Assembly (NCBI GenBank): GCA_026874595.1
Contig: CM049317.1
Location: forward strand, 76,699,891-76,763,890
Direction of reading: 5' to 3'
Source of the DNA: Sipunculus nudus
Lineage: Eukaryota; Annelida; Sipuncula; Golfingiida; Sipunculidae
DNA: 64,000 nt
The position numbers and the translations under genes are program-made. The notes beneath the pieces were generated by a model. That model saw only the letters and a program-made list of their open reading frames with translations, ran no database searches and had not been told where the DNA came from. Of the stretch, positions 1 to 49,571 are shown piece by piece (position 1 is the first letter of the stretch; each line of letters starts with the position of its first letter).

Positions 1-38
1 TCTGTGACATGTTCCAACGACACTAAGAAGACATGTCA

Positions 39-3000
39 GAATACGTGCCCTGCTCTCTTAGTTCTGTGACATGTTTCAACGACACTAAGAAGACATGTCA
101 GAAATAACGTGCGCTGCTCTCTCAGTTCTGTGGCATGTTTCAACGACACAAAGAAGACATGTCAGAAATAACGTGCCCTGCTCTTTCAGTTATGTAACAT
201 GTTTCAACGACACTAAGAAGACATGTCAGAAATAACGTGCCCTGCTCTCTCAGTTCTGTGACATGTTTCAACGACACTAAGAAGACATGTCAGAAATAAC
301 GTGCCCTGCTCTCTCAGTTCTGTGACATGTTTCAAGGACAATAAGAAGACATGTCAGAAATAACGTGCCCTGCTCTCTCAGTTCTGTGACATGTTTCAAC
401 GACACTAAGAAGACATGTCAGAAATAACGTGCCCTGCTCTCTCAGTTCTGTGACATGTTTCAAGGACAATAAGAAGACATGTCAGAAATAACGTGCCCTG
501 CTCTCTCAGTTCTGTGACATGTTTCAACGACACTAAGAAGACATGTCAGAAATAACGTGCCCTGCTCTCTCAGTTCTGTGACATGTTCCAACGACACTAA
601 GAAGACATGTCAGAATACGTGCCCTGCTCTCTTAGTTCTGTGACATGTTTCAACGACACTAAGAAGACATGTCAGAAATAACGTGCCCTGCTCTCTCAGT
701 TCTGTGGCATGTTTCAACGACACAAAGAAGACATGTCAGCAATAACGTGCCCTGCTCTTTCAGTTATGTAACATGTTTCAACGACACTAAGAAGACATGT
801 CAGAAATAACGTGCCCTGCTCTCTCAGTTCTGTGACATGTTTCAACGACACTAAGAAGACATGTCAGAAATAACGTGCCCTGCTCTTTCAGTTCTGTGAC
901 ATGTTTCAAGGACAATAAGAAGACATGTCAGAAATAACGTGCCCTGCTCTCTCAGTTATGTGACATGTTTCAACGACACTAAGAAGACATGTCAGAAATA
1001 ACGTGCCCTGCTCTCTCAGTTCTGTGACATGTTTCAACGACACTAAGAAGACATGTCAGAAATAACGTGCCCTGATCTCTCAGTTCTGTGACATGTTTCA
1101 AGGACACTAAGAAGACATGTCAGAAATAACGTGCCCTGCTCTCTCAGTTCTGTGACATGTTTCAACGACACTAAGAAGACATGTCAGAAATAACGTGCCC
1201 TGCTCTCTCAGTTCTGTGACATGTTCCAACGACACTAAGAAGACATGTCAGAAATAACGTGCCCTGCTCTCTCAGTTCTGTGACATGTTCCAACGACACT
1301 AAGAAGACTTGTCAGAAATAACGTGCCCTGCTCTCTCAGTTCTGTGACATGTTCCAACGACACTAAGAAGACATGTCAGAATACGTGCCCTGCTCTCTTA
1401 GTTCTGTGACATGTTTCAACGACACTAAGAAGACATGTCAGAAATAACGTGCCCTGCTCTCTCAGTTCTGTGGCATGTTTCAACAACACTAAGAAGACAT
1501 GTCAGAAATAACGTGCCCTGCTCTCTCAGTTCTGTGACATGTTTCAACGACACTAAGAAGACATGTCAGAAATAACGTGCCCTGCTCTCTCAGTTCTGTG
1601 ACATGTTTCAAGGACAATAAGAAGACATGTCAGAAATAACGTGCCCTGCTCTCTCAGTTATGTAACATGTTTCAACGACACTAAGAAGACATGTCAGAAA
1701 TAACGTGCCCTGCTCTCTCAGTTCTGTGACATGTTTCAAGGACAATAAGAAGACATGTCAGAAATAACGTGCCCTGCTCTCTCAGTTATGTGACATGTTT
1801 CAACGACACTAAGAAGACATGTCAGAAATAACGTGCCCTGCTCTCTCAGTTCTGTGACATGTTTCAACGACACTAAGAAGACATGTCAGAAATAACGTGC
1901 CCTGATCTCTCAGTTCTGTGACATGTTTCAACGACACTAAGAAGACATGTCAGAATACGTGCCCTGCTCTCTCAGTTCTGTGACATGTTTCAACGACACT
2001 AAGAAGACATGTCAGAAATAACGTGCCCTGCTCTCTCAGTTCTGTGGCATGTTTCAACAACACTAAGAAGACATGTCAGAAATAACGTGCCCTGCTCTCT
2101 CAGTTCTGTGACATGTTTCAACGACACTAAGAAGACATGTCAGAAATAACGTGCCCTGCTCTCTCAGTTCTGTGACATGTTTCAAGGACAATAAGAAGAC
2201 ATGTCAGAAATAACGTGCCCTGCTCTCTCAGTTATGTAACATGTTTCAACGACACTAAGAAGACATGTCAGAAATAACGTGCCCTGCTCTCTCAGTTCTG
2301 TGACATGTTTCAACGACACTAAGAAGACATGTCAGAAATAACGTGCCCTGCTCTTTCAGTTCTGTGACATGTTTCAAGGACAATAAGAAGACATGTCAGA
2401 AATAACGTGCCCTGCTCTCTCAGTTATGTGACATGTTTCAACGACACTAAGAAGACATGTCAGAAATAACGTGCCCTGCTCTCTCAGTTCTGTGACATGT
2501 TTCAACGACACTAAGAAGACATGTCAGAAATAACGTGCCCTGATCTCTCAGTTCTGTGACATGTTTCAACGACACTAAGAAGACATGTCAGAAATAACGT
2601 GCCCTGCTCTCTCAGTTCTGTGACATGTTTCAACGACAATAAGAAGACATGTCAGAAATAACGTGCCCTGCTCTCTCAGTTCTGTGACATGTTCAAACGA
2701 CACTAAGAAGACATGTCAGAAATTACGTGCCCTGCTCTCTCAGTTCTGTGACATGTTTCAACGACACTAAGAAGACTTGTCAGAAATAACGTGCCCTGCT
2801 CTCTCAGTTCTGTGACATGTTCCAACGACACTAAGAAGACATGTCAGAAATAACGTGCCCTGCTCTATCAGTTCTGTGACATGTTCCAACGACACTAAGA
2901 AGACATGTCAGAAATTACGTGCCCTGCTCTCTCAGTTCTGTGACATGTTTCAACGACACTAAGAAGACTTGTCAGAAATAACGTGCCCTGCTCTCTCAGT

Positions 3001-4385
3001 TCTGTGACATATTCCAACGACACTAAGAAGACATGTCAGAATACGTGCCCTGCTCTCTTAGTTCTGTGACATGTTTCAACGACACTAAGAAGACTTGTCA
3101 GAAATAACGTGCCCTGCTCTCTCAGTTCTGTGACATGTTTCAACGACACTAAGAAGACATGTCAGAAATAACGTGCCCTGCTCTCTCAGTTCTGTGGCAT
3201 GTTTCAGCAACACTAAGAAGACATGTCAGAAATAACGTGCCCTGCTCTCTCAGTTCTGTGACATGTTTCAACGACACTAAGAAGACATGTCAGAAATAAC
3301 GTGCCCTGCTCTCTCAGTTCTGTGACATGTTTCAAGGACAATAAGAAGACATGTCAGAAATAACGTGCGCTGCTCTCTCAGTTATGTGACATGTTTCAAC
3401 GACACTAAGAAGACATGTCAGAAATAACGTGCCCTGCTCTATCAGTTCTGTGACATGTTCCAACGACACAAAGAAGACATGTCAGAAATTACGTGCCCTG
3501 CTCTCTCAGTTCTGTGACATGTTTCAACGACACTAAGAAGACTTGTCAGAAATAACGTGCCCTGCTCTCTCAGTTCTGTGACATATTCCAACGACACTAA
3601 GAAGACATGTCAGAATACGTGCCCTGCTCTCTTAGTTCTGTGACATGTTTCAACGACACTAAGAAGACATGTCAGAAATAACGTGCCCTGCTCTCTCAGT
3701 TCTGTGGCATGTTTCAACAACACTAAGAAGACATGTCAGAAATAACGTGCCCTGCTCTCTCAGTTCTGTGACATGTTTCAACGACACTAAGAAGACATGT
3801 CAGAAATAACGTGCCCTGCTCTCTCAGTTCTGTGGCATGTTTCAGCAACACTAAGAAGACATGTCAGAAATAACGTGCCCTGCTCTCTCAGTTCTGTGAC
3901 ATGTTTCAACAACACTAAGAAGACATGTCAGAAATAACGTGCCCTGCTCTCTCACTTCTGTGACATGTTTCAAGGACACTAAGAAGACATGTCAGAAATA
4001 ACGTGCGCTGCTCTCTCAGTTATGTGACATGTTTCAACGACACTAAGAAGACATGTCAGAAATAACGTGCCCTGCTCTCTCAGTTCTGTGACATGTTTCA
4101 AGGACAATAAGAAGACATGTCAGAAATAACGTGCGCTGCTCTCTCAGTTATGTGACATGTTTCAACGACACTAAGAAGACATGTCAGAAATAACGTGCCC
4201 TGCTCTATCAGTTCTGTGACATGTTCCAACGACACTAAGAAGACATGTCAGAAATTACGTGCCCTGCTCTCTCAGTTCTGTGACATGTTTCAACGACACT
4301 AAGAAGACTTGTCAGAAATAACGTGCCCTGCTCTCTCAGTTCTGTGACATATTCCAACGACACTAAGAAGACATTTCAGAATACG
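39..4385 (+). repeat. Satellite sub-block with 574/766-bp (9- and 12-monomer) sub-periods
   Basis: The 62-bp monomer variant, marked by GAATACG, occurs at 39, 613, 1379, 1953, 3039, 3613 and 4379. The distances are 574, 766, 574, 1086, 574 and 766 bp, which equal 9, 12, 9, 17, 9 and 12 monomers of 64 bp minus 2 bp. The 574+766 pair gives a 1340-bp composite seen at 39-1379 and again at 3039-4379. This is a smaller repeat level nested within the larger blocks further right. Block edges are approximate because they are set by marker variants only. Confidence 0.75.
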
Positions 4386-7300
4386 TGCCCTGCTCTCTTA
4401 GTTCTGTGACATGTTTCAACGACACTAAGAAGACATGTCAGAAATAACGTGCCCTGCTCTCTCAGTTCTGTGGCATGTTTCAACAACACTAAGAAGACAT
4501 GTCAGAAATAACGTGCCCTGCTCTCTCAGTTCTGTGACATGTTTCAACGACACTAAGAAGACATGTCAGAAATAACGTGCCCTGCTCTCTCAGTTCTGTG
4601 GCATGTTTCAGCAACACTAAGAAGACATGTCAGAAATAACGTGCCCTGCTCTCTCAGTTCTGTGACATGTTTCAACAACACTAAGAAGACATGTCAGAAA
4701 TAACGTGCCCTGCTCTCTCACTTCTGTGACATGTTTCAAGGACAATAAGAAGACATGTCAGAAATAACGTGCGCTGCTCTCTCAGTTATGTGACATGTTT
4801 CAACGACACTAAGAAGACATGTCAGAAATAACGTGCCCTGCTCTCTCAGTTATGTAACATGTTTCAACGACACTAAGAAGACATGTCAGAAATAACGTGC
4901 CCTGCTCTCTCAGTTCTGTGACATGTTCCAACGACACTAAGAAGACATGTCAGAAATAACGTGCCCTGCTCTCTCAGTTCTGTGACATGTTTCAAGGACA
5001 ATAAGAAGACATGTCAGAAATAACGTGCCCTGCTCTCTCAGTTATGTGACATGTTTCAACGACACTAAGAAGACATGTCAGAAATAACGTGCCCTGCTCT
5101 CTCAGTTCGGTGACATGTTTCAACGACACTAAGAAGACATGTCAGAAATAACGTGCACTGCACTCTCAGTTCTGTGACAAGTTTCAACGACACTAAGAAG
5201 ACATGTCAGAAATAACGTGCCCTGCTCTCTCAGTTCTGTGACATGTTTCAACGACACTAAGAAGACATGTCAGAAATTACGTGCCCTGCTCTCTCAGTTC
5301 AGTGACATGTTTCAACGACACTAAGAAGACTTGTCAGAAATAACGTGCCCTGCTCTCTCAGTTCTGTGACATGTTTCAACGACACTAAGAAGACTTTTCA
5401 GAATACGTGCCCTGCTCTTAGTTCTGTGACATGTTTCAACGACACTAAGAAGACATGTCAGAAATAACGTGCCCTGCTCTCTCAGTTCTGTGGCATGTTT
5501 CAACAACACTAAGAAGACATGTCAGAAATAACGTGCCCTGCTCTCTCAGTTCTGTGACATGTTTCAACGACACTAAGAAGACATGTCAGAAATAACGTGC
5601 CCTGATCTCTCAGTTCTGTGACATGTTTCAACGACACTAAGAAGACATGTCAGAAATAACGTGCCCTGCTCTATCAGTTCTGTGACATGTTTCAACGACA
5701 ATAAGAAGACATGTCAGAAATAACGTGCCCTGCTCTCTCAGTTCTGTGACATGTTCCAACGACACTAAGAAGACATGTCAGAAATAACGTGCCCTGCTCT
5801 CTCAGTTCTGTGACATGTTCCAACGACACTAAGAAGACATGTCAGAAATAACGTGCCCTGCTCTCTCAGTTCTGTGACATGTTCCAACGACACTAAGAAG
5901 ACTTGTCAGAAATAACGTGCCCTGCTCTCTCAGTTCTGTGACATGTTCCAACGACACTAAGAAGACATGTCAGAATACGTGCCCTGCTCTCTTAGTTCTG
6001 TGACATGTTTCAACGACACTAAGAAGACATGTCAGAAATAACGTGCCCTGCTCTCTCAGTTCTGTAGCATTTTTCAACAACACTAAGAAGACATGTCAGA
6101 AATAACGTGCCCTGCTCTCTCAGTTCTGTGACATGTTTCAACGACACTAAGAAGACATGTCAGAAATAACGTGCCCTGCTCTCTCAGTTCTCTGACATGT
6201 TTCAAGGACAATAAGAAGACATGTCAGAAATAACGTGCCCTGCTCTCTCAGTTATGTAACATGTTTCAACGACACTAAGAAGACATGTCAGAAATAACGT
6301 GCCCTGCTCTCTCAGTTCTGTGACATGTTTCAACGACACTAAGAAGACATGTCAGAAATAACGTGCCCTGCTCTCTCAGTTCTGTGACATGTTTCAAGGA
6401 CAATAAGAAGACATGTCAGAAATAACGTGCCCTGCTCTCTCAGTTATGTGACATGTTTCAACGACACTAAGAAGACATGTCAGAAATAACGTGCCCTGCT
6501 CTCTCAGTTCTGAGACATGTTTCAACGACACTAAGAAGACATGTCAGAAATAACGTGCCCTGATCTCTCAGTTCTGTGACATGTTTCAACGACACTAAGA
6601 AGACATGTCAGAAATAACGTGCCCTGCTCTCTTAGTTCTGTGACATGTTTCAACGACACTAAGAAGACATGTCAGAAATAACGTGCCCTGCTCTCTCAGT
6701 TCTGTGGCATGTTTCAACAACACTAAGAAGACATGTCAGAAATAACGTGCCCTGCTCTCTCAGTTCTGTGACATGTTTCAACAACACTAAGAAGACATGT
6801 CAGAAATAACGTGCCCTGCTCTCTCAGTTCTGTGACATGTTTCAACGACACTAAGAAGACATGTCAGAAATAACGTGCCCTGATCTCTCAGTTCTGTGAC
6901 ATGTTTCAACGACACTAAGAAGACATGTCAGAAATAACGTGCCCTGCTCTATCAGTTCTGTGACATGTTTCAACGACAATAAGAAGACATGTCAGAAATA
7001 ACGTGCCCTGCTCTCTCAGTTCTGTGACATGTTCCAACGACACTAAGAAGACATGTCAGAAATTACGTGCCCTGCTCTCTCAGTTCTGTGACATGTTCCA
7101 ACGACACTAAGAAGACATGTCAGAAATAACGTGCCCTGCTCTCTCAGTTCTGTGATATGTTCCAACGACACTAAGAAGACATGTCAGAATACGTGCCCTG
7201 CTCTCTTAGTTCTGTGACATGTTTCAACGACACTAAGAAGACATGTCAGAAATAACGTGCCCTGCTCTCTCAGTTCTGTGACATGTTTCAACGACACTAA

Positions 7301-10300
7301 GAAGACATGTCAGAAATAACGTGCCCTGATCTCTCAGTTCTGTGACATGTTTCAACGACACTAAGAAGAAATGTCAGAAATAACGTGCCCTGCTCTCTCA
7401 GTTCTGTGACATGTTTCAAGGACAATAAGAAGACATGTCAGAAAAAACGTGCCCTGCTCTCTCAGTTCTGTGACATGTTTCAACGACACTAAGAAGACAT
7501 GTCAGAAATAACGTGCCCTGCTCTCTCAGTTCTGTGACATGTTCCAACGACACTAAGAAGACATGTCAGAAATAACGTGCCCTGCTCTCTCAGTTCTGTG
7601 ACATGTTCCAACGACACTAAGAAGACTTGTCAGAAATAACGTGCCCTGCTCTCTCAGTTCTGTGACATGTTCCAACGACACTAAGAAGACATGTCAGAAT
7701 ACGTGCCCTGCTCTCTTAGTTCTGTGACATGTTTCAACGACACTAAGAAGACATGTCAGAAATAACGTGCCCTGCTCTCTCAGTTCTGTGGCATGTTTCA
7801 ACAACACTAAGAAGACATGTCAGAAATAACGTGCCCTGCTCTCTCAGTTCTGTGACATGTTTCAACGACACTAAGAAGACATGTCAGAAATAACGTGCCC
7901 TGCTCTCTCAGTTCTGTGACATGTTTCAAGGACAATAAGAAGACATGTCAGAAATAACGTGCCCTGCTCTCTCAGTTATGTAACATGTTTCAACGACACT
8001 AAGAAGACATGTCAGAAATAACGTGCACTGCTCTCTCAGTTCTGTGACATGTTTCAACGACACTAAGAAGACATGTCAGAAATAACGTGCCCTGCTCTCT
8101 CAGTTCTGTGACATGTTCCAACGACACTAAGAAGACATGTCAGAATACGTGCCCTGCTCTCTTAGTTCTGTGACATGTTTCAACGACACTAAGAAGACAT
8201 GTCAGAAATAACGTGCCCTGCTCTCTCAGTTCTGTGACATGTTCCAACGACACTAAGAAGACATGTCAGAATACGTGCCCTGCTCTCTTAGTTCTGTGAC
8301 ATGTTTCAACGACACTAAGAAGACATGTCAGAAATAACGTGCCCTGCTCTCTCAGTTCTGTGACATGTTTCAAGGACAATAAGAAGACATGTCAGAAATA
8401 ACGTGCCCTGCTATCTCAGTTATGTAACATGTTTCAACGACACTAAGAAGACATGTCAGAAATAACGTGCCCTGCTCTCTCAGTTCTGTGATATGTTTCA
8501 ACGACACTAAGAAGACATGTCAGAAATAACGTGCCCTGCTCTCTCAGTTCTGTGACATGTTTCAAGGACAATAAGAAGACATGTCAGAAATAACGTGCCC
8601 TGCTCTCTCAGTTATGTGACATGTTTCAACGACACTAAGAAGACATGTCAGAAATAACGTGCCCTGCTCTCTCAGTTCTGTGACATGTTTCAACGACACT
8701 AAGAAGACATGTCAGAAATAACGTGCCCTGCTCTCTCAGTTCTGTGACATGTTTCAACGACACTAAGAAGACATGTCAGAAATAACATGCCCTGATCTCT
8801 CAGTTCTGTGACATGTTTCAACGACACTAAGAAGACATGTCAGAAATAACGTGCCCTGCTCTCTTAGTTCTGTGACATGTTTCAACGACACTAAGAAGAC
8901 ATGTCAGAAATAACGTGCCCTGCTCTCTCAGTTCTGTGGCATGTTTCAACAACACTAAGAAGACATGTCAGAAATAACGTGCCCTGCTCTCTCAGTTCTG
9001 TGACATGTTTCAACAACACTAAGAAGACATGTCAGAAATAACGTGCCCTGCTCTCTCAGTTCTGTGACATGTTTCAACGACACTAAGAAGACATGTCAGA
9101 AATAACGTGCCCTGATCTCTCAGTTCTGTGACATGTTTCAACGACACTAAGAAGACATGTCAGAAATAACGTGCCCTGCTCTATCAGTTCTGTGACATGT
9201 TTCAACGACAATAAGAAGACTTGTCAGAAATAACGTGCCCTGCTCTCTCAGTTCTGTGACATGTTCCAACGACACTAAGAAGACATGTCAGAAATTACGT
9301 GCCCTGCTCTCTCAGTTCTGTGACATGTTCCAACGACACTAAGAAGACATGTCAGAAATAACGTGCCCTGCTCTCTCAGTTCTGTGATATGTTCCAACGA
9401 CACTAAGAAGACATGTCAGAATACGTGCCCTGCTCTCTTAGTTCTGTGACATGTTTCAACGACACTAAGAAAACATGTCAGAAATAACGTGCCCTGCTCT
9501 CTCAGTTCTGTGGCATATTTCAACAACACTAAGAAGACATGTCAGAAATAACGTGCCCTGCTCTCTCAGTTCTGTGACATGTTTCAACGACACTAAGAAG
9601 ACATGTCAGAAAAAACGTGCCCTGCTCTCTCAGTTCTGTGACATGTTTCAAGGACAATAAGAAGACATGTCAGAAAAAACGTGCCCTGCTCTCTCAGTTC
9701 TGTGACATATTTCAACGACACTAAGAAGACATGTCAGAAATAACGTGCCCTGCTCTCTCAGTTCTGTGACATGTTCCAACGACACTAAGAAGACATGTCA
9801 GAAATAACGTGCCCTGCTCTCTCAGTTCTGTGACATGTTCCAACGACACTAAGAAGACTTGTCAGAAATAACGTGCCCTGCTCTCTCAGTTCTGTGACAT
9901 GTTCCAACGACACTAAGAAGACATGTCAGAATACGTGCCCTGCTCTCTTAGTTCTGTGACATGTTTCAACGACACTAAGAAGACATGTCAGAAATAACGT
10001 GCCCTGCTCTCTCAGTTCTGTGGCATGTTTCAACAACACTAAGAAGACATGTCAGAAATAACGTGCCCTGCTCTCTCAGTTCTGTGACATGTTTCAACGA
10101 CACTAAGAAGACATGTCAGAAATAACGTGCCCTGCTCTCTCAGTTCTGTGACATGTTTCAAGGACAATAAGAAGACATGTCAGAAATAACTTGCCCTGCT
10201 CTCTCAGTTATGTAACATGTTTCAACGACACTAAGAAGACATGTCAGAAATAACGTGCACTGCTCTCTCAGTTCTGTGACATGTTTCAACGACACTAAGA

Positions 10301-10343
10301 AGACATGTCAGAAATAACGTGCCCTGCTCTTTCAGTTCTGTGA

Positions 10344-13300
10344 CATGTTTCAAGGACAATAAGAAGGCATGTCAGAAATAACGTGCCCTGCTCTCTCAGT
10401 TATGTGACATGTTTCAACGACACTAAGAAGACATGTCAGAAATAACGTGCCCTGCTCTCTCAGTTCTGTGACATGTTTCAACGACACTAAGAAGACATGT
10501 CAGAAATAACGTGCCCTGATCTCTCAGTTCTGTGACATGTTTCAACGACACTAAGAAGACATGTCAGAAATAACGTGCCCTGCTCTCTCAGTTCTGTGAC
10601 ATGTTTCAACGACAATAAGAAGACATGTCAGAAATAACGTGCCCTGCTCTCTCAGTTCTGTGACATGTTCCAACGACACTAAGAAGACATGTCAGAAATT
10701 ACGTGCCCTGCTCTCTCAGTTCTGTGACATGTTTCAACGACACTAAGAAGACTTGTCAGAAATAACGTGCCCTGCTCTCTTAGTTCTGTGACATGTTCCA
10801 ACGACACAAAGAAGACATGTCAGAATACGTGCCCTGCTCTCTTAGTTCTGTGACATGTTTCAACGACACTAAGAAGACATGTCAGAATACGTGCCCTGCT
10901 CTCTTAGTTCTGTGACATGTTTCAACGACACTAAGAAAACATGTCAGAAATAACGTGCCCTGCTCTCTCAGTTCTGTGGCATATTTCAACAACACTAAGA
11001 AGACATGTCAGAAATAACGTGCCCTGCTCTCTCAGTTCTGTGACATGTTTCAACGACACTAAGAAGACATGTCAGAAAAAACGTGCCCTGCTCTCTCAGT
11101 TCTGTGACATGTTTCAAGGACAATAAGAAGACATGTCAGAAAAAACGTGCCCTGCTCTCTCAGTTCTGTGACATGTTTCAACGACACTAAGAAGACATGT
11201 CAGAAATAACGTGCCCTGCTCTCTCAGTTCTGTGACATGTTCCAACGACACTAAGAAGACATGTCAGAAATAACGTGCCCTGCTCTCTCAGTTCTGTGAC
11301 ATGTTCCAACGACACTAAGAAGACTTGTCAGAAATAACGTGCCCTGCTCTCTCAGTTCTGTGACATGTTCCAACGACACTAAGAAGACATGTCAGAATAC
11401 GTGCCCTGCTCTCTTAGTTCTGTGACATGTTTCAACGACACTAAGAAGACATGTCAGAAATAACGTGCCCTGCTCTCTCAGTTCTGTGGCATGTTTCAAC
11501 AACACTAAGAAGACATGTCAGAAATAACGTGCCCTGCTCTCTCACTTCTGTGACATGTTTCAAGGACAATAAGAAGACATGTCAGAAATAACGTGCGCTG
11601 CTCTCTCAGTTATGTGACATGTTTCAACGACACTAAGAAGACATGTCAGAAATAACGTGCCCTGCTCTCTCAGTTATGTGACATGTTTCAACGACACTAA
11701 GAAGACATGTCAGAAATAACGTGCCCTGCTCTCTCAGTTCTGTGACATGTTCCAACGACACTAAGAAGACATGTCAGAAATAACGTGCCCTGCTCTCTCA
11801 GTTCTGTGACATGTTTCAAGGACAATAAGAAGACATGTCAGAAATAACGTGCCCTGCTCTCTCAGTTATGTGACATGTTTCAACGACACTAAGAAGACAT
11901 GTCAGAAATAACGTGCCCTGCTCTCTCAGTTCGGTGACATGTTTCAACGACACTAAGAAGACATGTCAGAAATAACGTGCACTGCACTCTCAGTTCTGTG
12001 ACAAGTTTCAACGACACTAAGAAGACATGTCAGAAATAACGTGCCCTGCTCTCTCAGTTCTGTGACATGTTTCAACGACACTAAGAAGACATGTCAGAAA
12101 TTACGTGCCCTGCTCTCTCAGTTCAGTGACATGTTTCAACGACACTAAGAAGACTTGTCAGAAATAACGTGCCCTGCTCTCTCAGTTCTGTGACATGTTT
12201 CAACGACACTAAGAAGACTTTTCAGAATACGTGCCCTGCTCTTAGTTCTGTGACATGTTTCAACGACACTAAGAAGACATGTCAGAAATAACGTGCCCTG
12301 CTCTCTCAGTTCTGTGGCATGTTTCAACAACACTAAGAAGACATGTCAGAAATAACGTGCCCTGCTCTCTCAGTTCTGTGACATGTTTCAACAACACTAA
12401 GAAGACATGTCAGAAATAACGTGCCCTGCTCTCTCAGTTCTGTGACATGTTTCAACGACACTAAGAAGACATGTCAGAAATAACGTGCCCTGATCTCTCA
12501 GTTCTGTGACATGTTTCAACGACACTAAGAAGACATGTCAGAAATAACGTGCCCTGCTCTATCAGTTCTGTGACATGTTTCAACGACAATAAGAAGACAT
12601 GTCAGAAATAACGTGCCCTGCTCTCTCAGTTCTGTGACATGTTCCAACGACACTAAGAAGACATGTCAGAAATAACGTGCCCTGCTCTCTCAGTTCTGTG
12701 ACATGTTCCAACGACACTAAGAAGACATGTCAGAAATAACGTGCCCTGCTCTCTCAGTTCTGTGACATGTTCCAACGACACTAAGAAGACTTGTCAGAAA
12801 TAACGTGCCCTGCTCTCTCAGTTCTGTGACATGTTCCAACGACACTAAGAAGACATGTCAGAATACGTGCCCTGCTCTCTTAGTTCTGTGACATGTTTCA
12901 ACGACACTAAGAAGACATGTCAGAAATAACGTGCCCTGCTCTCTCAGTTCTGTAGCATTTTTCAACAACACTAAGAAGACATGTCAGAAATAACGTGCCC
13001 TGCTCTCTCAGTTCTGTGACATGTTTCAACGACACTAAGAAGACATGTCAGAAATAACGTGCCCTGCTCTCTCAGTTCTGTGACATGTTTCAAGGACAAT
13101 AAGAAGACATGTCAGAAATAACGTGCCCTGCTCTCTCAGTTATGTAACATGTTTCAACGACACTAAGAAGACATGTCAGAAATAACGTGCCCTGCTCTCT
13201 CAGTTCTGTGACATGTTTCAACGACACTAAGAAGACATGTCAGAAATAACGTGCCCTGCTCTCTCAGTTCTGTGACATGTTTCAAGGACAATAAGAAGAC

Positions 13301-21563: not shown

Positions 21564-21601
21564 TCAGTTCTGTGACATGTTCCAACGACACTAAGAAGAC
21601 A

Positions 21602-36300: not shown

Positions 36301-36649
36301 GTCAGGAATAACGTGCACTGCTCTCTCAGTTTTGTGACATGTTTCAACAACAGCAAGAAGACATGTCAGAAATAACGTGCCCTGATCTCTCAGTTCTGTG
36401 ACATGTTTCAACGACACTAAGAAGACATGTCAGAAATAACGTGCCCTGCTCTCTCAGTTCTGTGACATGTTCCAACAACACTAAGAAGACATGTCAGAAA
36501 TAACGTGCACTGCTCTCTCAGTTCTGTGACATGTTTCAACGACACTAAGAAGACATGTCAGAAATAACGTGCACTGCTCTCTCAGTTTTGTGACATGTTT
36601 CAACAACAGCAAGAAGACATGTCAGAAATAACGTGCACTGCTCTCTCAG

Positions 36650-39600
36650 TTCTGTGACATGTTTCAACGACACTAAGAAGACATGTCAGAAATAACGTGC
36701 CCTGCTCTCTCAGTTCTGTGACATGTTTCAACGACACTAAGAAGACATGTCAGAAATAACGTGCCCTGCTCTCTCAGTTCTGTGGCATGTTTCAACAACA
36801 CTAAGAAGACATGTCAGAAATAACGTGCCCTGCTCTCTCAGTTCTGTGACATGTTTCAACAAAACTAAGAAGACATGTCAGAAATAACGTGCCCTGCTTT
36901 CTCAGTTCTGTGAAATGTTTCAACAACACTAAGAAGACATGTCAGAAATAACGTGCCCTGCTCTCTCCGTTCTGCTGCATGTTTCAACAACACTAAGAAG
37001 ACATGTCAGAAATAACGTGCCCTGCTCTCTCCGTTCTGTGGCATGTTTCAAGGACAATAAGAAGACATGTCAGAAATAACGTGCCCTGCTCTCTCCGTTC
37101 TGTGACATGTTTCAACGACACTAAGAAGACATGTCAGAAATAACGTGCCCTGCTCTCTCAGTTCTGTGACATGTTTCAACGACACTAAGAAGACATGTCA
37201 GAAATAACGTGCCCTGCTCTCTCAGTTCTGTGACATGTTTCAACGACACTAAAAAGACATGTCAGAAATAACGTGCCCTGCTCTCTCAGTTCTGTGACAT
37301 GTTTCAACGACACTGAGAGGACATGTCAGAAATAACGTGCCCTGCTCTCTCCGTTCTGTGACATGTTTCAAGGACAATAAGAAGACATGTCAGAAATAAC
37401 GAGCCCTGCTCTCTCCTTTCTGTGACATTTTTCAACGACACTAAGAAGACATGTCAGAAATAACGTACCCTGCTCTCTCAGTTCTGTGACATGTTTCAAC
37501 CACACTAAGAAGACATGTCAGAAATAACCTGCACTGCTCTCTCAGTTCTGTGACATGTTTCAACAACACTAAGAAGACACTTCAGAAATAACGTGCACTG
37601 CTCTCTCAGTTCTGTGACATGTTTCACACAATAAGAAATAACGTGCACTGCTCTCTCAGTTCTGTGACATGTTTCAACAACACTAAGAAGACATGTCAGA
37701 AATAACGTGCCCTGCTCTCTCAGTTCTGTGACATGTTTCAACGACACTAAGAAGACTTGTCAGAATACGTGCCCTGCTCTCTTAGTTCTGTGACATGTTT
37801 CAACGACACTAAGAAGACATGTCAGAAATAACGTGCCCTGCTCTCTCAGTTCTGTGGCATGTTTCAACGACACTAAGAAGACATGTCAGAAATAACGTGC
37901 CCTGCTCTCTCAGTTCTGTGACATGTTTCAACGACACTAAGAAGACATGTCAGAAATAACGTGCCCTGCTCTCTCAGTTCTGTGACATGTTTCATCGACA
38001 CTAAGAAGACATGTCAGAAATAACGTGCCCTGATCTCTCAGTTCTGTGACATGTTTCAACGACACTAAGAAGACATGTCAGAAATAACGTGCCCTGCTCT
38101 ATCAGTTCTGTGACATGTTTCAACGACAATAAGAAGACATGTCAGAAATAACGTGCCCTGCTCTCTCAGTTCTGTGACATGTTCCAACGACACTAAGAAG
38201 ACATGTCAGAAATTACGTGCCCTGCTCTCTCAGTTCTGTGACATGTTCCAACGACACTAAGAAGACATGTCAGAATACCTGCCCTGCTCTCTTAGTTCTG
38301 TGACATGTTTCAACGACACTAGGAAAACATGTCAGAAATAACGTGCCCTGCTCTCTCAGTTCTGTGGCATGTTTCAACAACACTAAGAAGACATGTCAGA
38401 AATAACGTGCCCTGCTCTCTCAGTTCTGTGACATGTTTCAACGACACTAAGAAGACATGTCAGAAATAACGTGCCCTGCTCTCTCAGTTCTGTGACATGT
38501 TTCAAGGACAATAAGAAGACATGTCAGAAATAACGTGCCCTGCTCTCTCAGTTCTGTGACATGTTTCAACGACACTAAGAAGACATGTCAGAAATAACGT
38601 GCCCTGCTCTCTCAGTTCTGTGACATGTTTCAACGACACTAAGAAGACATGTCAGAAATAACGTGCCCTGCTCTCTCAGTTCTGTGGCATGTTTCAACAA
38701 CACTAAGAAGACATGTCAGAAATAACGTGCCCTGCTCTCTCAGTTCTGTGACATGTTTCAACAAAACTAAGAAGACATGTCAGAAATAACGTGCCCTGCT
38801 TTCTCAGTTCTGTGAAATGTTTCAACAACACTAAGAAGACATGTCAGAAATAACGTGCCCTGCTCTCTCCGTTCTGCTGCATGTTTCAACAACACTAAGA
38901 AGACATGTCAGAAATAACGTGCCCTGCTCTCTCCGTTCTGTGGCATGTTTCAAGGACAATAAGAAGACATGTCAGAAATAACGTGCCCTGCTCTCTCCGT
39001 TCTGTGACATGTTTCAACGACACTAAGAAGACATGTCAGAAATAACGTGCCCTGCTCTCTCAGTTCTGTGACATGTTTCAACGACACTAAGAAGACATGT
39101 CAGAAATAACGTGCCCTGCTCTCTCAGTTCTGTGACATGTTTCAACGACACTAAAAAGACATGTCAGAAATAACGTGCCCTGCTCTCTCAGTTCTGTGAC
39201 ATGTTTCAACGACACTGAGAGGACATGTCAGAAATAACGTGCCCTGCTCTCTCCGTTCTGTGACATGTTTCAAGGACAATAAGAAGACATGTCAGAAATA
39301 ACGAGCCCTGCTCTCTCCTTTCTGTGACATTTTTCAACGACACTAAGAAGACATGTCAGAAATAACGTACCCTGCTCTCTCAGTTCTGTGACATGTTTCA
39401 ACCACACTAAGAAGACATGTCAGAAATAACCTGCACTGCTCTCTCAGTTCTGTGACATGTTTCAACAACACTAAGAAGACACTTCAGAAATAACGTGCAC
39501 TGCTCTCTCAGTTCTGTGACATGTTTCACACAATAAGAAATAACGTGCACTGCTCTCTCAGTTCTGTGACATGTTTCAACAACACTAAGAAGACATGTCA

Positions 39601-40453
39601 GAAATAACGTGCCCTGCTCTCTCAGTTCTGTGACATGTTTCAACGACACTAAGAAGACTTGTCAGAATACGTGCCCTGCTCTCTTAGTTCTGTGACATGT
39701 TTCAACGACACTAAGAAGACATGTCAGAAATAACGTGCCCTGCTCTCTCAGTTCTGTGGCATGTTTCAACGACACTAAGAAGACATGTCAGAAATAACGT
39801 GCCCTGCTCTCTCAGTTCTGTGACATGTTTCAACGACACTAAGAAGACATGTCAGAAATAACGTGCCCTGCTCTCTCAGTTCTGTGACATGTTTCATCGA
39901 CACTAAGAAGACATGTCAGAAATAACGTGCCCTGATCTCTCAGTTCTGTGACATGTTTCAACGACACTAAGAAGACATGTCAGAAATAACGTGCCCTGCT
40001 CTATCAGTTCTGTGACATGTTTCAACGACAATAAGAAGACATGTCAGAAATAACGTGCCCTGCTCTCTCAGTTCTGTGACATGTTCCAACGACACTAAGA
40101 AGACATGTCAGAAATTACGTGCCCTGCTCTCTCAGTTCTGTGACATGTTCCAACGACACTAAGAAGACATGTCAGAATACCTGCCCTGCTCTCTTAGTTC
40201 TGTGACATGTTTCAACGACACTAGGAAAACATGTCAGAAATAACGTGCCCTGCTCTCTCAGTTCTGTGGCATGTTTCAACAACACTAAGAAGACATGTCA
40301 GAAATAACGTGCCCTGCTCTCTCAGTTCTGTGACATGTTTCAACGACACTAAGAAGACATGTCAGAAATAACGTGCCCTGCTCTCTCAGTTCTGTGACAT
40401 GTTTCAAGGACAATAAGAAGACATGTCAGAAATAACGTGCCCTGCTCTCTCAG
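36650..40453 (+). repeat. Two tandem 1902-bp higher-order repeats containing a truncated 50-bp monomer
   Basis: Markers recur at 1902 bp: CCGTTCTGCTGC (36967 and 38869), CAACAAAACTAAG (near 36855 and 38757) and the truncated monomer (near 37625 and 39527). In that monomer, TTTCACACAATAAG replaces the normal central part, 14 bp shorter than usual. Thirty monomers minus 14 bp for the 50-mer and minus 4 bp for two 62-mers gives exactly 1902. Edges at 36650, about 38552 and about 40453 were set where neighbouring variants stop matching. Confidence 0.8.
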
Positions 40454-41499
40454 TTCTGTGACATGTTTCAACGACACTAAGAAGACATGTCAGAAATAAC
40501 GTGCCCTGCTCTCTCAGTTCTGTGACATGTTCCAACGACACTAAGAAGACATGTCAGAAATAACGTGCCCTGCTCTCTCAGTTCTGTGACATGTTCCAAC
40601 GACACTAAGAAGACATGTCAGAAATAACGTGCCCTGCTCTCTCAGTTCTGTGGCATGTTTCAACGACACTAAGAAGACATGTCAGAAATAACGTGCCCTG
40701 CTCTCTCAGTTCTGTGGCATGTTTCAACAACACTAAGAAGACATATCAGAAATAACGTGCCCTGCTTTATCAGTTCTGTGGCATGTTTCAACAACACTAA
40801 GAAGACATGTCAGAAATAACGTGCCCTGCTCTCTCAGTTCTGTGACTTGTTCCAACGACACTAAGAAGACATGTCAGAAATAACGTGCCCTGCTCTCTCA
40901 GTTCTGTGACATGTTTCAACGACACTAAGAAGACATGTCAGAAATAACGTGCCCTGCTCTCTCAGTTCTGTGACATGTTTCAACGACACTAAGAAGACAT
41001 GTCAGAAATAACGTGCCCTGCTCTCTCCGTTCCGTGACATTTTTCAACGACACTAACAAGACATGTTAGAAATAACGTGCCCTGCTCGCTCAGTTCTGTG
41101 ACATGTTTCAACGACACTAAGAAGACATGTCAGAAATAGCGTGCCCTGCTCTCTCAGTTCGGTGACATGTTTCAACGACACTAAGAAGACAAGTCAGGAA
41201 TAACGTGCACTGCTCTCTCAGTTTTGTGACATGTTTCAACAACAGCAAGAAGACATGTCAGAAATAACGTGCCCTGATCTCTCAGTTCTGTGACATGTTT
41301 CAACGACACTAAGAAGACATGTCAGAAATAACGTGCCCTGCTCTCTCAGTTCTGTGACATGTTCCAACAACACTAAGAAGACATGTCAGAAATAACGTGC
41401 ACTGCTCTCTCAGTTCTGTGACATGTTTCAACGACACTAAGAAGACATGTCAGAAATAACGTGCCCTGCTCTCTCAGTTCTGTGACATGTTTCAACGAC

Positions 41500-43040
41500 A
41501 CTAAGAAGACATGTCAGAAATAACGTGCCCTGCTCTCTCAGTTCTGTGGCATGTTTCAACAACACTAAGAAGACATGTCAGAAATAACGTGCCCTGCTCT
41601 CTCAGTTCTGTGGCATGTTTCAACAAAACTAAGAAGACATGTCAGAAATAACGTGCCCTGCTTTCTCAGTTCTGTGAAATGTTTCAACAACACTAAGAAG
41701 ACATGTCAGAAATAACGTGCCCTGCTCTCTCCGTTCTGCTGCATGTTTCAACAACACTAAGAAGACATGTCAGAAATAACGTGCCCTGCTCTCTCCGTTC
41801 TGTGGCATGTTTCAAGGACAATAAGAAGACATGTCAGAAATAACGTGCCCTGCTCTCTCCGTTCTGTGACATGTTTCAACGACACTAAGAAGACATGTCA
41901 GAAATAACGTGCCCTGCTCTCTCAGTTCTGTGACATGTTTCAACGACACTAAGAAGACATGTCAGAAATAACGTGCCTTGCTCTCTCAGTTCTGTGACAT
42001 GTTTCAACGACACTAAAAAGACATGTCAGAAATAACGTGCCCTGCTCTCTCAGTTCTGTGACATGTTTCAACGACACTGAGAGGACATGTCAGAAATAAC
42101 GTGCCCTGCTCTCTCCGTTCTGTGACATGTTTCAAGGACAATAAGAAGACATGTCAGAAATAACGTGCCCTGCTCTCTCCTTTCTGTGACATTTTTCAAC
42201 GACACTAAGAGGACATGTCAGAAATAACGTACCCTGCTCTCTCAGTTCTGTGACATGTTTCAACCACACTAAGAAGACATGTCAGAAATAACCTGCACTG
42301 CTCTCTCAGTTCTGTGACATGTTTCAACAACACTAAGAAGACACTTCAGAAATAACGTGCACTGCTCTCTCAGTTCTGTGACATGTTTCACACAATAAGA
42401 AATAACGTGCACTGCTCTCTCAGTTCTGTGACATGTTTCAACAACACTAAGAAGACATGTCAGAAATAACGTGCCCTGCTCTCTCAGTTCTGTGACATGT
42501 TTCAACGACACTAAGAAGACTTGTCAGAATACGTGCCCTGCTCTCTTAGTTCTGTGACATGTTTCAACGACACTAAGAAGACATGTCAGAAATAACGTGC
42601 CCTGCTCTCTCAGTTCTGTGGCATGTTTCAACGACACTAAGAAGACATGTCAGAAATAACGTGCCCTGCTCTCTCAGTTCTGTGACATGTTTCAACGACA
42701 CTAAGAAGACATGTCAGAAATAACGTGCCCTGCTCTCTCAGTTCTGTGACATGTTTCATCGACACTAAGAAGACATGTCAGAAATAACGTGCCCTGATCT
42801 CTCAGTTCTGTGACATGTTTCAACGACACTAAGAAGACATGTCAGAAATAACGTGCCCTGCTCTATCAGTTCTGTGACATGTTTCAACGACAATAAGAAG
42901 ACATGTCAGAAATAACGTGCCCTGCTCTCTCAGTTCTGTGACATGTTCCAACGACACTAAGAAGACATGTCAGAAATTACGTGCCCTGCTCTCTCAGTTC
43001 TGTGACATGTTTCAACGACACTAAGAAGACTTGTCAGAAA
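41500..43040 (+). repeat. Partial third copy of the 1902-bp family, offset by 2862 bp
   Basis: The same ordered set of variants follows 2862 bp after the second 1902-bp unit. Examples are CCGTTCTGCTGC at 41731 against 38869 and the truncated-monomer region starting 42269 against 39407. The offset equals 45 monomers minus 18 bp, so 15 extra monomers (40.5-41.4 kb) sit between the copies. Those 15 carry the CCGTTCCGTGAC marker at 41027, which belongs to the 5878-bp family. This region is a mosaic of two repeat families. Confidence 0.7.
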
Positions 43041-43619
43041 TAACGTGCCCTGCTCTCTCAGTTCTGTGACATGTTCCAACGACACAAAGAAGACATGTCA
43101 GAATACGTGCCCTGCTCTCTTAGTTCTGTGGCATGTTTCAACGACACTAAGAAGACATGTCAGAAATAACGTGCCCTGCTCTCTCAGTTCTGTGACATGT
43201 TTCAACAACACTAAGAAGACATGTCAGAAATAACGTGCCCTGCTCTCTCAGTTCTGTGACATGTTTCAAGGACAATAAGAAGACATGTCAGAAATAACGT
43301 GCGCTGCTCTCTCAGTTATGTGACATGTTTCAACGACACTAAGAAGACATGTCAGAAATAACGTGCCCTGCTCTCTCAGTTCTGTGACATGTTTCAACGA
43401 CACTAAGAAGACATGTCAGAAATAACGTGCCCTGATCTCTCAGTTCTGTGACATGCTTCAACGACACTAAGAAGACATGACAAAAATAACGTGCCCTGCT
43501 CTCTCAGTTCTGTGACATGTTTCAACGACACTAAGAAGACATGTCAGAAATAACGTGCCCTGCTCTCTCAGTTCTGTGACATGTTTCAAGGACAATAAGA
43601 AGACATGTCAGAAATAACG

Positions 43620-44640
43620 TGCCCTGCTCTCTCAGTTCTGTGACATGTTTCAACGACACTAAGAAGACATGTCAGAAATAACGTGCCCTGCTCTCTCAGT
43701 TCTGTGACATGTTCCAACGACACTAAGAAGACATGTCAGAAATAACGTGCCCTGCTCTCTCAGTTCTGTGACATGTTCCAACGACACTAAGAAGACTTGT
43801 CAGAAATAACGTGCCCTGCTCTCTCAGTTCTGTGACATGTTCCAACGACACTAAGAAGACATGTCAGAATACGTGCCCTGCTCTCTTAGTTCTGTGACAT
43901 GTTTCAACGACACTAAGAAGACATGTCAGAAATAACGTGCCCTGCTCTCTCAGTTCTGTGGCATGTTTCAACAACACTAAGAAGACATGTCAGAAATAAC
44001 GTGCACTGCTCTCTCAGTTCTGTGACATGTTTCAACGACACTAAGAAGACATGTCAGAAATAACGTGCACTGCTCTCTCAGTTCTGTGACATGTTTCAAG
44101 GACAATAAGAAGACATGTCAGAAATAACGTGCCCTGCTCTCTCAGTTCTGTGACATGTTTCAACGACACTAAGAAGACATGTCAGAAATAACGTGCCCTG
44201 CTCTCTCAGTTCTGTGACATGTTCCAACGACACTAAGAAGACATGTCAGAAATAACGTGCCCTGCTCTCTCAGTTCTGTGACATGTTCCAACGACACTAA
44301 GAAGACTTGTCAGAAATAACGTGCCCTGCTCTCTCAGTTCTGTGACATGTTCCAACGACACTAAGAAGACATGTCAGAATACGTGCCCTGCTCTCTTAGT
44401 TCTGTGACATGTTTCAACGACACTAAGAAGACATGTCAGAAATAACGTGCCCTGCTCTCTCAGTTCTGTGGCATGTTTCAACAACACTAAGAAGACATGT
44501 CAGAAATAACGTGCACTGCTCTCTCAGTTCTGTGACATGTTTCAACGACACTAAGAAGACATGTCAGAAATAACGTGCACTGCTCTCTCAGTTCTGTGAC
44601 ATGTTTCAAGGACAATAAGAAGACATGTCAGAAATAACGT
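43620..44640 (+). repeat. Two tandem 510-bp (8-monomer) sub-repeats
   Basis: The GAATACG short-monomer marker occurs at 43867 and 44377, 510 bp apart (8 monomers minus 2 bp). The monomers around it match in order: three GTTCCAACG monomers, one with AAGACTTGTC, then the short monomer, a CAACAACAC monomer and GTGCACTG monomers. Edges are approximate. Confidence 0.65.
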
Positions 44641-44649
44641 GCCCTGCTC

Positions 44650-47450
44650 TCTCAGTTATGTGACATGTTTCAACGACACTAAGAAGACATGTCAGAAATA
44701 ACGTGCCCTGCTCTCTCAGTTCTGTGACATGTTTCAACGACACTAAGAAGACATGTCAGAAATAACATGCCCTGCTCTCTCAGTTCTGTGACATGTTTCA
44801 AGGACAATAAGAAGACATGTCAGAAATAACGTGCCCTGCTCTCTCAGTTATGTGACATGTTTCAACGACACTAAGAAGACATGTCAGAAATAACGTGCCC
44901 TGCTCTCTCAGTTCTGTGACATGTTTCAACGACACTAAGAAGACATGTCAGAAATAACGTGCCCTGATCTCTCAGTTCTGTGACATGTTTCAACGACACT
45001 AAGAAGACTTGTCAGAAATAACGTGCCCTGCTCTCTCAGTTCTGTGACATGTTCCAACGACACAAAGAAGACATGTCAGAATACGTGCCCTGCTCTCTTA
45101 GTTCTGTGGCATGTTTCAACGACACTAAGAAGACATGTCAGAAATAACGTGCCCTGCTCTCTCAGTTCTGTGACATGTTTCAACAACACTAAGAAGACAT
45201 GTCAGAAATAACGTGCCCTGCTCTCTCAGTTCTGTGACATGTTTCAAGGACAATAAGAAGACATGTCAGAAATAACGTGCGCTGCTCTCTCAGTTATGTG
45301 ACATGTTTCAACGACACTAAGAAGACATGTCAGAAATAACGTGCCCTGCTCTCTCAGTTCTGTGACATGTTTCAACGACACTAAGAAGACATGTCAGAAA
45401 TAACGTGCCCTGATCTCTCAGTTCTGTGACATGCTTCAACGACACTAAGAAGACATGACAAAAATAACGTGCCCTGCTCTCTCAGTTCTGTGACATGTTT
45501 CAACGACACTAAGAAGACATGTCAGAAATAACGTGCCCTGCTCTCTCAGTTCTGTGACATGTTTCAACGACACTAAGAAGACATGTCAGAAATAACGTGC
45601 CCTGATCTCTCAGTTCTGTGACATGTTTCAACGACACTAAGAAGACATGACAGAAATAACGTGCCCTGCTCTCTCAGTTCTGTGACATGTTTCAACGACA
45701 CTAAGAAGACATGTCAGAAATAACGTGCCCTGCTCTCTCAGTTCTGTGACATGTTTCAACGACACTAAGAAGACATGTCAGAAATAACGTGCCCTGCTCT
45801 CTCAGTTCTGTGACATGTTCCAACGACACTAAGAAGACATGTCAGAAATAACGTGCCCTGCTCTCTCAGTTCTGTGACATGTTTCAACGACACTAAGAAG
45901 ACATGTCAGAAATAACGTGCCCTGCTCTCTCAGTTCTGTGACATGTTCGAACAACACTAAGAAGACATGTCAGAAATAACGTGCCCTGCTCTCTCAGTTC
46001 TGTGACATGTTTCAACGACACTAAGAAAACATGTCAGAAATAACGTGCCCTGCTCTCTCAGTTATGTGACATGTTTCAACGACACTAAGAAGACATGTCA
46101 GAAATAACGTGCCCTGCTCTCTCAGTTCTGTGACATGTTTCAACGACACTAAGAAGACATGTCAGAAATAACATGCCCTGCTCTCTCAGTTCTGTGACAT
46201 GTTTCAAGGACAATAAGAAGACATGTCAGAAATAACGTGCCCTGCTCTCTCAGTTATGTGACATGTTTCAACGACACGAAGAAGACATGTCAGAAATAAC
46301 GTGCCCTGCTCTCTCAGTTCTGTGACATGTTTCAACGACACTAAGAAGACATGTCAGAAATAACGTGCCCTGATCTCTCAGTTCTGTGACATGTTTCAAC
46401 GACACTAAGAAGACTTGTCAGAAATAACGTGCCCTGCTCTCTCAGTTCTGTGACATGTTCCAACGACACAAAGAAGACATGTCAGAATACGTGCCCTGCT
46501 CTCTTAGTTCTGTGGCATGTTTCAACGACACTAAGAAGACATGTCAGAAATAACGTGCCCTGCTCTCTCAGTTCTGTGACATGTTTCAACAACACTAAGA
46601 AGACATGTCAGAAATAACGTGCCCTGCTCTCTCAGTTCTGTGACATGTTTCAAGGACAATAAGAAGACATGTCAGAAATAACGTGCGCTGCTCTCTCAGT
46701 TATGTGACATGTTTCAACGACACTAAGAAGACATGTCAGAAATAACGTGCCCTGCTCTCTCAGTTCTGTGACATGTTTCAACGACACTAAGAAGACATGT
46801 CAAAAATAACGTGCCCTGATCTCTCAGTTCTGTGACATGTTTCAACGACACTAAGAAGACATGACAGAAATAACGTGCCCTGCTCTCTCAGTTCTGTGAC
46901 ATGTTTCAACAACACTAAGAAGACATGTCAGAAATAACGTGCCCTGCTCTCTCAGTTCTGTGACATGTTTCAACGACACTAAGAAGACATGTCAGAAATA
47001 ACGTGCCCTGATCTCTCAGTTCTGTGACATGTTTCAACGACACTAAGAAGACATGACAGAAATAACGTGCCCTGCTCTCTCAGTTCTGTGACATGTTTCA
47101 ACGACACTAAGAAGACATGTCAGAAATAACGTGCCCTGCTCTCTCAGTTCTGTGACATGTTTCAACGACACTAAGAAGACATGTCAGAAATAACGTGCCC
47201 TGCTCTCTCAGTTCTGTGACATGTTCCAACGACACTAAGAAGACATGTCAGAAATAACGTGCCCTGCTCTCTCAGTTCTGTGACATGTTTCAACGACACG
47301 AAGAAGACATGTCAGAAATAACGTGCCCTGCTCTCTCAGTTCTGTGACATGTTCGAACAACACTAAGAAGACATGTCAGAAATAACGTGCACTGCTCTCT
47401 CAGTTCTGTGACATGTTTCAACGACACTAAGAAGACATGTCAGAAATAAC
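44650..47450 (+). repeat. Two tandem 1406-bp (22-monomer) higher-order repeats
   Basis: Markers recur at 1406 bp: AATAACATGCCC (44761 and 46167), a 62-bp monomer block (starting 45023 and 46429) and GTTCGAACAAC (45945 and 47351). A related block starts 1978 bp before the first (43045 to 45023), so the two distances differ by nine monomers. The end near 47.45 kb is where private variants of the array edge begin. Confidence 0.75.
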
Positions 47451-49436
47451 GTGCCCTGCTCTCTCAGTTCTGTGACATGTTTCAACGACACTAAGAAGAC
47501 ATGTCACAAATAACGTGCCCTGCTCTCACAGTTCTGTAACATGTTTCAATAACAGTAAGAAGACATGTCAGAAATAACGAGCCCTGCTCTCTCAGTTCTG
47601 TGACATGTTTCAACGACACTAAGAAGACATGTCAGAAATAACGTGCCCTGCTCTCTCAGTTCTGTGACATGTTTCAACGACACTAAGAAGACATGTCAGA
47701 AATAACGTGCCCTGCTCTCTCAGTTCTGTGACATGTTTCAACGACACTAAGAAGACATGTCAGAAATAACGTGCACTGCTCTCTCAGTTCTGTGACATGT
47801 TTCAACAACACTTAGAAGACATGTCAGAAATAACGTGCACTGCTCTCTCAGTTCTGTGACATGTTTCAACAACACTAAGAAGACACTTCAGAAATAACGT
47901 GTACTGCTCTCTCAGTTTTGTGACATGTTTCACACAATAAGAAATAACGTGCACTGCTCTCTCAGTTCTGTGACATGTTTCAACAACAGTAAGAAGACAT
48001 GTCAGAAATAACGTTCCCTGCTCTCTCAGTTCTGTGACATGTTTCAACAACAGTAAAAAGGCATGTCAGAAATAACGTGCCCTGATCTCTCAGTTCTGTG
48101 ACATGTTTCAACGACACTAAGAAGACATGTCAGAAATAACGTGCCCTGCTCTCTCAGTTCTGTGACATGTTTCAATAACAGTAAGAAGACATGTCAGAAA
48201 AAACGTGCCCTGCTCTCTCAGTTCTGTGACATGTTTCAACGACACTTAGAAAACATGTCAGAAATAACGTGCCCTGCTCTCTCAGTTCTGTGACATGTTT
48301 CAACGACACTAAGAAGACATGTCAGAAATAACGTGCCCTGCTCTCTCAGTTCTGTGACATGTTTCAAGAACAGTAAGAAGACATTTCAGGAATAACGTGC
48401 CCTGCTCTCTCAGTTCTGTGACATGTTTCAACAACAGTAAGAAGACATGTCAGAAATAACGTGCCCTGCTCTCTCAGTTCTGTGACATGTTTCAACGACA
48501 CTAAGAAGACATGTCAGAAATAACGTGCCTTGCTCTCTCAGTTCTGTGACATGTTTCAAGGACACTAAGAGGACATGTCAGAAATAACGTGCCCTGCTCT
48601 CTCAGTTCTGTGACATGTTTCAACGACACTAAGAAGACATGTCAGAAATAAAGTGCCCTGCTCTCTCAGTTCTGTGACATGTTTCACACAATAAGAAATA
48701 ACCTGCCCTGCTCTCTCAGTTCTGTGACATGTTTCAACAACAGTAAGAAGACATGTAAGAAATAACGTGCACTGCTATCTCAGTCCTGTGACATGTTTCA
48801 AACAACACTAAGAAGACATGTCAGAAATAACGTGCACTGCTCTCTCAGTTCTGTGACATGTTTCAACAACACTAAGAAGACATGTCAGAAATAACGTGCA
48901 CTGCTCTCACAGTTCTGTGACATGTTTCAACAACACTAAGAAGACATGTCAGAAATAACGTGCCCTGCTCTCAGTTCTGTGACATGTTTCACACAATAAG
49001 AAATAACCTGCACTGCTCTCTCAGTTCTGTGACATGTTTCAACAACAGTAAGAAGACATGTAAGAAATAACGTGCACTGCTATCTCAGTCCTGTGACATG
49101 TTTCAAACAACACTAAGAAGACATGTCAGAAATAACGTGCACTGCTCTCTCAGTTCTGTGACATGTTTCAACAACACTAAGAAGACATGTCAGAAATAAC
49201 GTGCACTGCTCTCACAGTTCTGTGACATGTTTCAACAACACTAAGAAGACATGTCAGAAATAACGTGCACTGCTCTCTCAGTTCTGTGACATGTTTCAAC
49301 TACACTAAGAAGACATGTCAGAAATAACGTGCCCTGCTCTCTCAGTTCTGTGACATGTTTCAACGACACTAAGAAGACATGTCAGAAATAACGTGCCCTG
49401 CTCTCTCAGTTCTGAGTCATGTTTCAACAACACTAT
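47450..49436 (+). repeat. Divergent right edge of the satellite array with a 305-bp duplication
   Basis: Monomers here carry many variants not seen elsewhere, such as CAATAACAGTAAG, GACATGTAAG, CAGTCCTGTG and a 65-bp form with CAAACAACAC. A segment with the truncated CACACAATAAG monomer and the 65-bp monomer is duplicated at a 305-bp lag (48685 and 48990; 48799 and 49104). The final monomer loses its match after CAACAACACTATG near 49436. Higher divergence at the edge of an array than in its core is the usual pattern, attributed to less homogenisation there. Confidence 0.85.
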
Positions 49437-49460: not shown

Positions 49461-49504
49461 GTGTGTGTGTGTGTGTTTATGTGTGTGTGTGTGTGCGTGT
49501 ATGT

Positions 49505-49571
<67 letters not shown>
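49461..49571 (+). repeat. (GT)n microsatellite
   Basis: This is about 110 bp of nearly pure GT dinucleotides with scattered TTT and GCGT interruptions. It begins 25 bp after the last satellite monomer. Open frames across it are dinucleotide artefacts. Confidence 0.95.

Follow-up and report, generated by a model that had tools for sequence, protein, structure and literature searches.

The stretch of Sipunculus nudus DNA analysed here, a window of 64,000 nucleotides at C12:76,699,891-76,763,890 (contig C12 has 78,550,287 bases, and the assembly 1,426,538,692 bases in 153 contigs), opens inside a tandem repeat with a 64-bp unit of 43% G+C, which runs gaplessly and on one strand to position 49435 (775.4 copies, 94% matches in TRF). 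The array of at least 49 kb described in an earlier, sequence-only reading is thus borne out, and proved to be the right-hand part of a longer one. Adding 200 kb to the left of the window placed the array start ~42 kb to the left of the window's first base, giving a whole array of ~91.3 kb at C12:~76,658,060-76,749,325, with ~1,430 monomers of 194 types; the parse counts 1,433 monomers, a few of which are flank, and takes in ~70 bases of left flank, inflating the divergence of the first monomers. To the right of the array lie remnants of a receptor gene of the secretin family that carries a somatomedin B domain, a LINE-like element, and a dispersed ~330-bp repeat. As far as can be judged from its letters, the array is noncoding; Rfam gave no match within the window, and viral contigs gave no exact match to a 52-base stretch. 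The features of the array in the window, all on the forward strand and in window coordinates, are as follows.

1..49435 (+): right-hand part of the 64-bp array (TRF, monomer parse, overlap with the left extension)
3210..4851 (+): 12-monomer (766-bp) tandem pair; 876-bp self-match, 5 mismatches; passes the 0.5% test
10260..19821 (+): 90-monomer (5744-bp) spaced block pair (10260-14077 and 16004-19821); 3,818 bp, 7 mismatches
21583..33429 (+): 92-monomer (5878-bp) tandem pair; 5,969-bp self-match, 5 mismatches; 91-monomer run; clean mosaic seam monomer
30338..35376 (+): 37-monomer (2366-bp) tandem pair, its first copy in the second 92-monomer copy; 2,673-bp self-match, 10 mismatches
36611..40652 (+): 30-monomer (1902-bp) tandem pair with 50-bp short monomers; 2,140-bp self-match, 5 mismatches; 31 monomers identical
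43496..44797 (+): 8-monomer (510-bp) tandem pair; 792-bp self-match, 4 mismatches
44623..47774 (+): 22-monomer (1406-bp) diverged block pair; 1,746-bp self-match, 21 mismatches
47300..49435 (+): decayed right array edge (divergence from consensus)

The window parses into 776 monomers of 138 distinct types: 716 of 64 bp, 48 of 62 bp, six of 50 bp, three of 60 bp, two of 65 bp and one partial monomer of 25 bp. Mean identity between array monomers is ~94.6%, and the commonest type has a 0.19 share of the array. Divergence from the consensus is 2.1-4.3% in interior blocks of 40 monomers, and 5.9%, 5.8% and 12.3% in the successive tens of the last 30 monomers; such a homogeneous interior with a decayed right edge is expected where exchange acts inside an array.

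All nine of the block shifts named in the sequence-only reading gave in-register self-matches, each a whole number of monomers minus the bases absent from the 62-, 60- and 50-bp variants. Thus, 510, 574, 766, 1340, 1406, 1902, 2366, 5744 and 5878 bp correspond to 8, 9, 12, 21, 22, 30, 37, 90 and 92 monomers, the readings of 12 and 21 for shifts 766 and 1340 being by arithmetic. Near-exact full-length tandem pairs were found in the window at shifts 5878, 2366, 1902, 766 and 510, with 5, 10, 5, 5 and 4 mismatches, respectively, over the extents found. Shift 5744 is not a full tandem copy; its pair is spaced and partial, covering 58 of the 90 monomers. Shifts 574, 1340 and 1406 correspond to weak, diverged pairs with 24, 59 and 21 mismatches. 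Monomer runs confirmed that the 37-monomer block is nested in the 92-monomer block, as had been proposed; the companion claim, that 9- and 12-monomer blocks lie together inside larger ones, found no confirmation at any single place, the best matches at 574, 766 and 1340 standing apart. Within the 92-monomer pair, 14-monomer segments also recur at lags of 44 and 48, which add up to 92. The window holds 99 block matches of at least six monomers; 100 shuffles of monomer order gave 0.04 on average and never more than 1. In the whole array there are 280 such runs, and none of 20 order shuffles gave more than 1; because the matches vanish when the order is shuffled, chance is excluded. Repeated runs of at least six monomers take in 1,317 of the 1,433 parsed monomers, and exact runs cover 0.674 of the array.

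These blocks had been put forward as multi-level higher-order repeats (HORs), a description that holds insofar as nested, in-register blocks are duplicated array-wide, and fails insofar as it implies regular HORs of the primate type. A search of the whole array at shifts of 400-9000 bp returned 12 full-length tandem pairs with ≤0.5% difference, of 12 different sizes from 510 to 5878 bp, and no third consecutive copy at ≤1.5% difference. At 1-2% difference, 19 shifts had two full copies; the sole three-copy case, 510 bp at C12:76,688,041, lies outside the window and appears at 2% only. The most iterated block family is at the left array end, likewise outside the window, where marker monomer types 26 and 27 occur nine times each; its spacings, followed with one marker type, are irregular (26, 27, 15, 26, 27, 23, 24 and 80 monomers). 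A 68-monomer block (26+27+15) is itself duplicated there, with shift 4334 and zero mismatches over 4,344 bp, so that a block made of these three parts was then copied whole, implying at least two nested generations of duplication. At no shift in this 400-9000-bp range is one multi-monomer unit iterated many times in near-identical form, as in alpha satellite. The array is a patchwork of nested duplications of 8-92-monomer blocks, with no unit regularly amplified.

The locus has the features of a minisatellite: a 64-bp head-to-tail unit, one location, and interspersed variants with internal block duplications. It is very probable, in our judgment, that it is a single-locus, satellite-sized minisatellite in which in-register blocks have been duplicated and deleted at random by out-of-register exchange. 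The exchange mechanism, the timing of the exchanges, and variation in array length between individuals are points that we infer. The block lengths hold the 64-bp register, which indicates homologous pairing, and mispaired exchange is the most likely means by which the blocks were copied. Sister chromatids or homologues, each bearing a long homologous array, would pair out of register there and then exchange, or a broken fork would restart out of register; either way, blocks of 8-92 monomers would be gained or lost in register at random positions. With the monomers labelled by point mutations, each exchange would duplicate one labelled block once, and later exchanges would duplicate portions of earlier blocks to give nested shifts. 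Unequal crossover, sister-strand conversion and break-induced replication have each been proposed as the origin of block duplications or HORs in such arrays (PMC8997354, PMC2897807), and cannot be told apart from one haplotype.

Unequal homologous exchange predicts an excess of hybrid monomers at the seams between copies, each seam monomer taking its left part from the monomer that lies a period downstream and its right part from the one a period upstream. Three of the 12 seams were uninformative, and six of the nine informative ones (five of eight if the seam that lags 68 and 15 have in common is not counted twice) were clean 5'/3' hybrids in the predicted order, against about 5% by chance (774 of 13,970 trios taken at the same lags, and 723 of 14,843 taken at random). 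All nine informative seams contained parental bases only, as did 2,695 of the 13,970 control trios. The three seams that ran against the prediction were that of lag 37, which had the reverse order, and those of lags 10 and 9, which fitted neither order cleanly. Eleven of the 12 tandem pairs at ≤0.5% difference had just 8 mismatches over their best-placed 21,688 bp, and must therefore be recent or recently homogenised. A neutral model in which blocks were duplicated and deleted at random, and monomers mutated, produced 0-13 tandem pairs per run and a third copy in none of 48 runs. It fell short in exact-run coverage (maximum 0.61, observed 0.674) and in the share of the commonest type (maximum 0.08, observed 0.19), and so left arrays less homogeneous than the real one; we take the settings not as a fit but as a sign that nested pairs can arise with no special mechanism.

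The rival that survives best, though we think it unlikely, is that the block duplications were made or scrambled by the assembler, or that two haplotypes were joined in tandem. Judged from the assembly alone, copies identical over kilobases, such as the 4,344-bp pair above, are what this would produce. However, neither the window nor the 20 10-kb pieces fetched to its left, which overlap it exactly, contain any N, and the array occurs on no second contig. Moreover, 12 pairs of different sizes, hybrid seams inside monomers, and older pairs nested with younger ones fit biological exchange better than joined haplotypes.

A lower probability still attaches to the proposal of the sequence-only reading that the array is a centromeric satellite with multi-level HORs, and its designation as a centromere candidate found no support. 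The homogeneity of the array, its single direction, its nested block duplications and its decayed edge would suit a centromere, as would the 8-bp inverted repeat within the unit. But the unit is restricted to this one array of ~91 kb, which has no regular unit and none with three near-identical copies. All 884 exact genome matches to a 30-base stretch of the unit lie on one strand and in this array, as do all 1,413 genome matches to a 34-base stretch at ≤3 mismatches (control 0). At this threshold, which would miss more diverged relatives, the unit is thus confined to C12, one of at least 16 large contigs, and absent from the other chromosomes, on all or most of which a centromeric satellite would be present. 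The search itself can detect a satellite shared among chromosomes: a pattern search for a different, 169-bp satellite, into which the right end of C12 runs, found 825 matches (319 + 506; control 0), those listed lying on C3, C4 and C5, mostly in the first 71 kb of a contig or at 97.4-97.5 Mb of C4, and serves as a positive control. This satellite, of nucleosome length, was seen at L051:1290-3000, running off the contig end; we infer that it is subtelomeric, and C12 probably ends in a true subtelomere. That end is 1.80 Mb away from the 64-bp array, which sits 97.6% of the way along C12. C12 could be strongly acrocentric and have a centromere satellite of its own, but this is unlikely.

The unit was also examined for a CENP-B box and a conserved dyad, and both were rejected as chance-level. 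The best match to the CENP-B core has 5 of 9 fixed positions, which 99.9% of shuffles also reach; the arms of the 8-bp inverted repeat show no significant excess of conservation (permutation p 0.21), and an inverted repeat as long turns up in 26% of shuffled monomers, a lax count that admits palindromes and so inflates the chance rate. Arabidopsis centromeres also have "HORs", in the form of blocks duplicated locally and irregularly within an array that is nearly homogeneous. Local block duplication is thus common to both systems, but the Arabidopsis array is the main centromere satellite of all chromosomes, in contrast to the single locus here. The centromere reading is not supported for this array. 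We give very little credence to its narrower form, in which a young satellite peculiar to C12 serves as the centromere of that chromosome or has some other function there, with HORs just beginning to grow.

Equally improbable is a location within a Helentron or similar transposable element: bivalve satellites often lie in such elements, as many do in oyster (PMC8268682), and a (GT)n tract follows the array at window positions 49461-49570, but there are zero unit copies elsewhere at ≤3 mismatches, and a right-flank probe (window 49650-50440) matched elsewhere, among the matches listed, only over ~50023-50356, its array-proximal part matching only itself, so that neither the unit nor the array-proximal right flank shows the many dispersed copies with shared flanks of a Helentron.

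A single-locus minisatellite rearranged by exchange has close parallels. Minisatellites of the MS32, CEB1 and MSY1 type have units of 9-100 bp and variant monomers arranged in blocks, with duplications ascribed to unequal exchange or sister-strand gene conversion (PMC2897807, PMC2599865); the present array shares their unit size and their blocks of variant monomers. Unlike the 77-repeat allele in the MSY1 study, it has ~1,430 units over 91 kb, and blocks of up to 92 units were copied at once, whereas the mutants seen in MSY1 changed by 1-3 units (PMC2599865). Its G+C content also differs from that of human-type minisatellites, and the array is read here from one haplotype.

In primate alpha satellite, by comparison, the monomers that make up a unit share 50-70% identity, and the unit copies are nearly identical and fill the arrays (PMC8997354). 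Sets of distinct monomers duplicated together and disordered edges are common to alpha satellite and the array described here; the latter differs in its far more similar monomers, its near-identical blocks that come in pairs, and its single locus. Its monomers are ~5% apart and its block pairs mostly differ by <0.5%, a contrast in the same direction as in alpha satellite but far smaller. In the Pacific oyster, 25 of 52 satellites are on all chromosomes and others on some or even a single one, and the longest arrays of most inspected satellite families have 9-48 monomers (PMC8268682); restriction to certain chromosomes is therefore a point of likeness, whereas the oyster arrays are far shorter.

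The array is a good specimen of an already known kind of DNA, the single-locus minisatellite, here of great length and with a history of duplication that is unusually easy to read. Its record of block duplications is gapless, so that their order, sizes and seams can be followed from one monomer to the next. HORs are thought to start via unequal exchange or break-induced replication (PMC8997354), and this locus shows the reach of random exchange alone: nested blocks and many shifts, with no regular unit. It also counsels caution, for shifts that form nested multiples of the monomer length do not on their own amount to evidence for a centromere.

The array is set in mixed gene- and transposon-bearing DNA that is rich in minisatellites. 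On its right, matches to a secretin-family 7tm_2 domain (E 3.9e-8) and to somatomedin B are spread across several frames of the reverse strand at window positions 50338-52677, as remains of either a decayed gene or a gene with small introns. Copies of the dispersed ~330-bp repeat at ~50023-50356 are 76-86% identical and occur on many contigs, at several places with a second piece nearby in opposite orientation. On the left, tandem repeats make up 12.6% of 158 kb of flank, which includes several other arrays with units of 32-50 bp, and retroelement frames. One of these arrays, at C12:76,534,658-76,538,542 (L004), has 91 copies of a 42-bp unit and is a more regular HOR than the 64-bp array, TRF periods of 129 and 171 bp scoring equally well or better. 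About 10 kb to the left of the 64-bp array, on the reverse strand at L015:3937-8169, an unbroken frame of 1,411 aa with reverse transcriptase, RNase H and integrase domains is seemingly a young LTR-type retroelement. Further left, a 494-aa open frame on the reverse strand at C12:76,632,464-76,633,948 (L014:2464-3948) matches a RING finger at E 1.4e-5, which falls below the curated cutoff, and RAG1 importin-binding at E 2.1e-5, which lies above it; the frame resembles the N-terminal part of RAG1. A transposon consisting only of RAG1 N-terminal-type sequence, N-RAG-TP, has been described in the sea slug Aplysia (PMC8355894).
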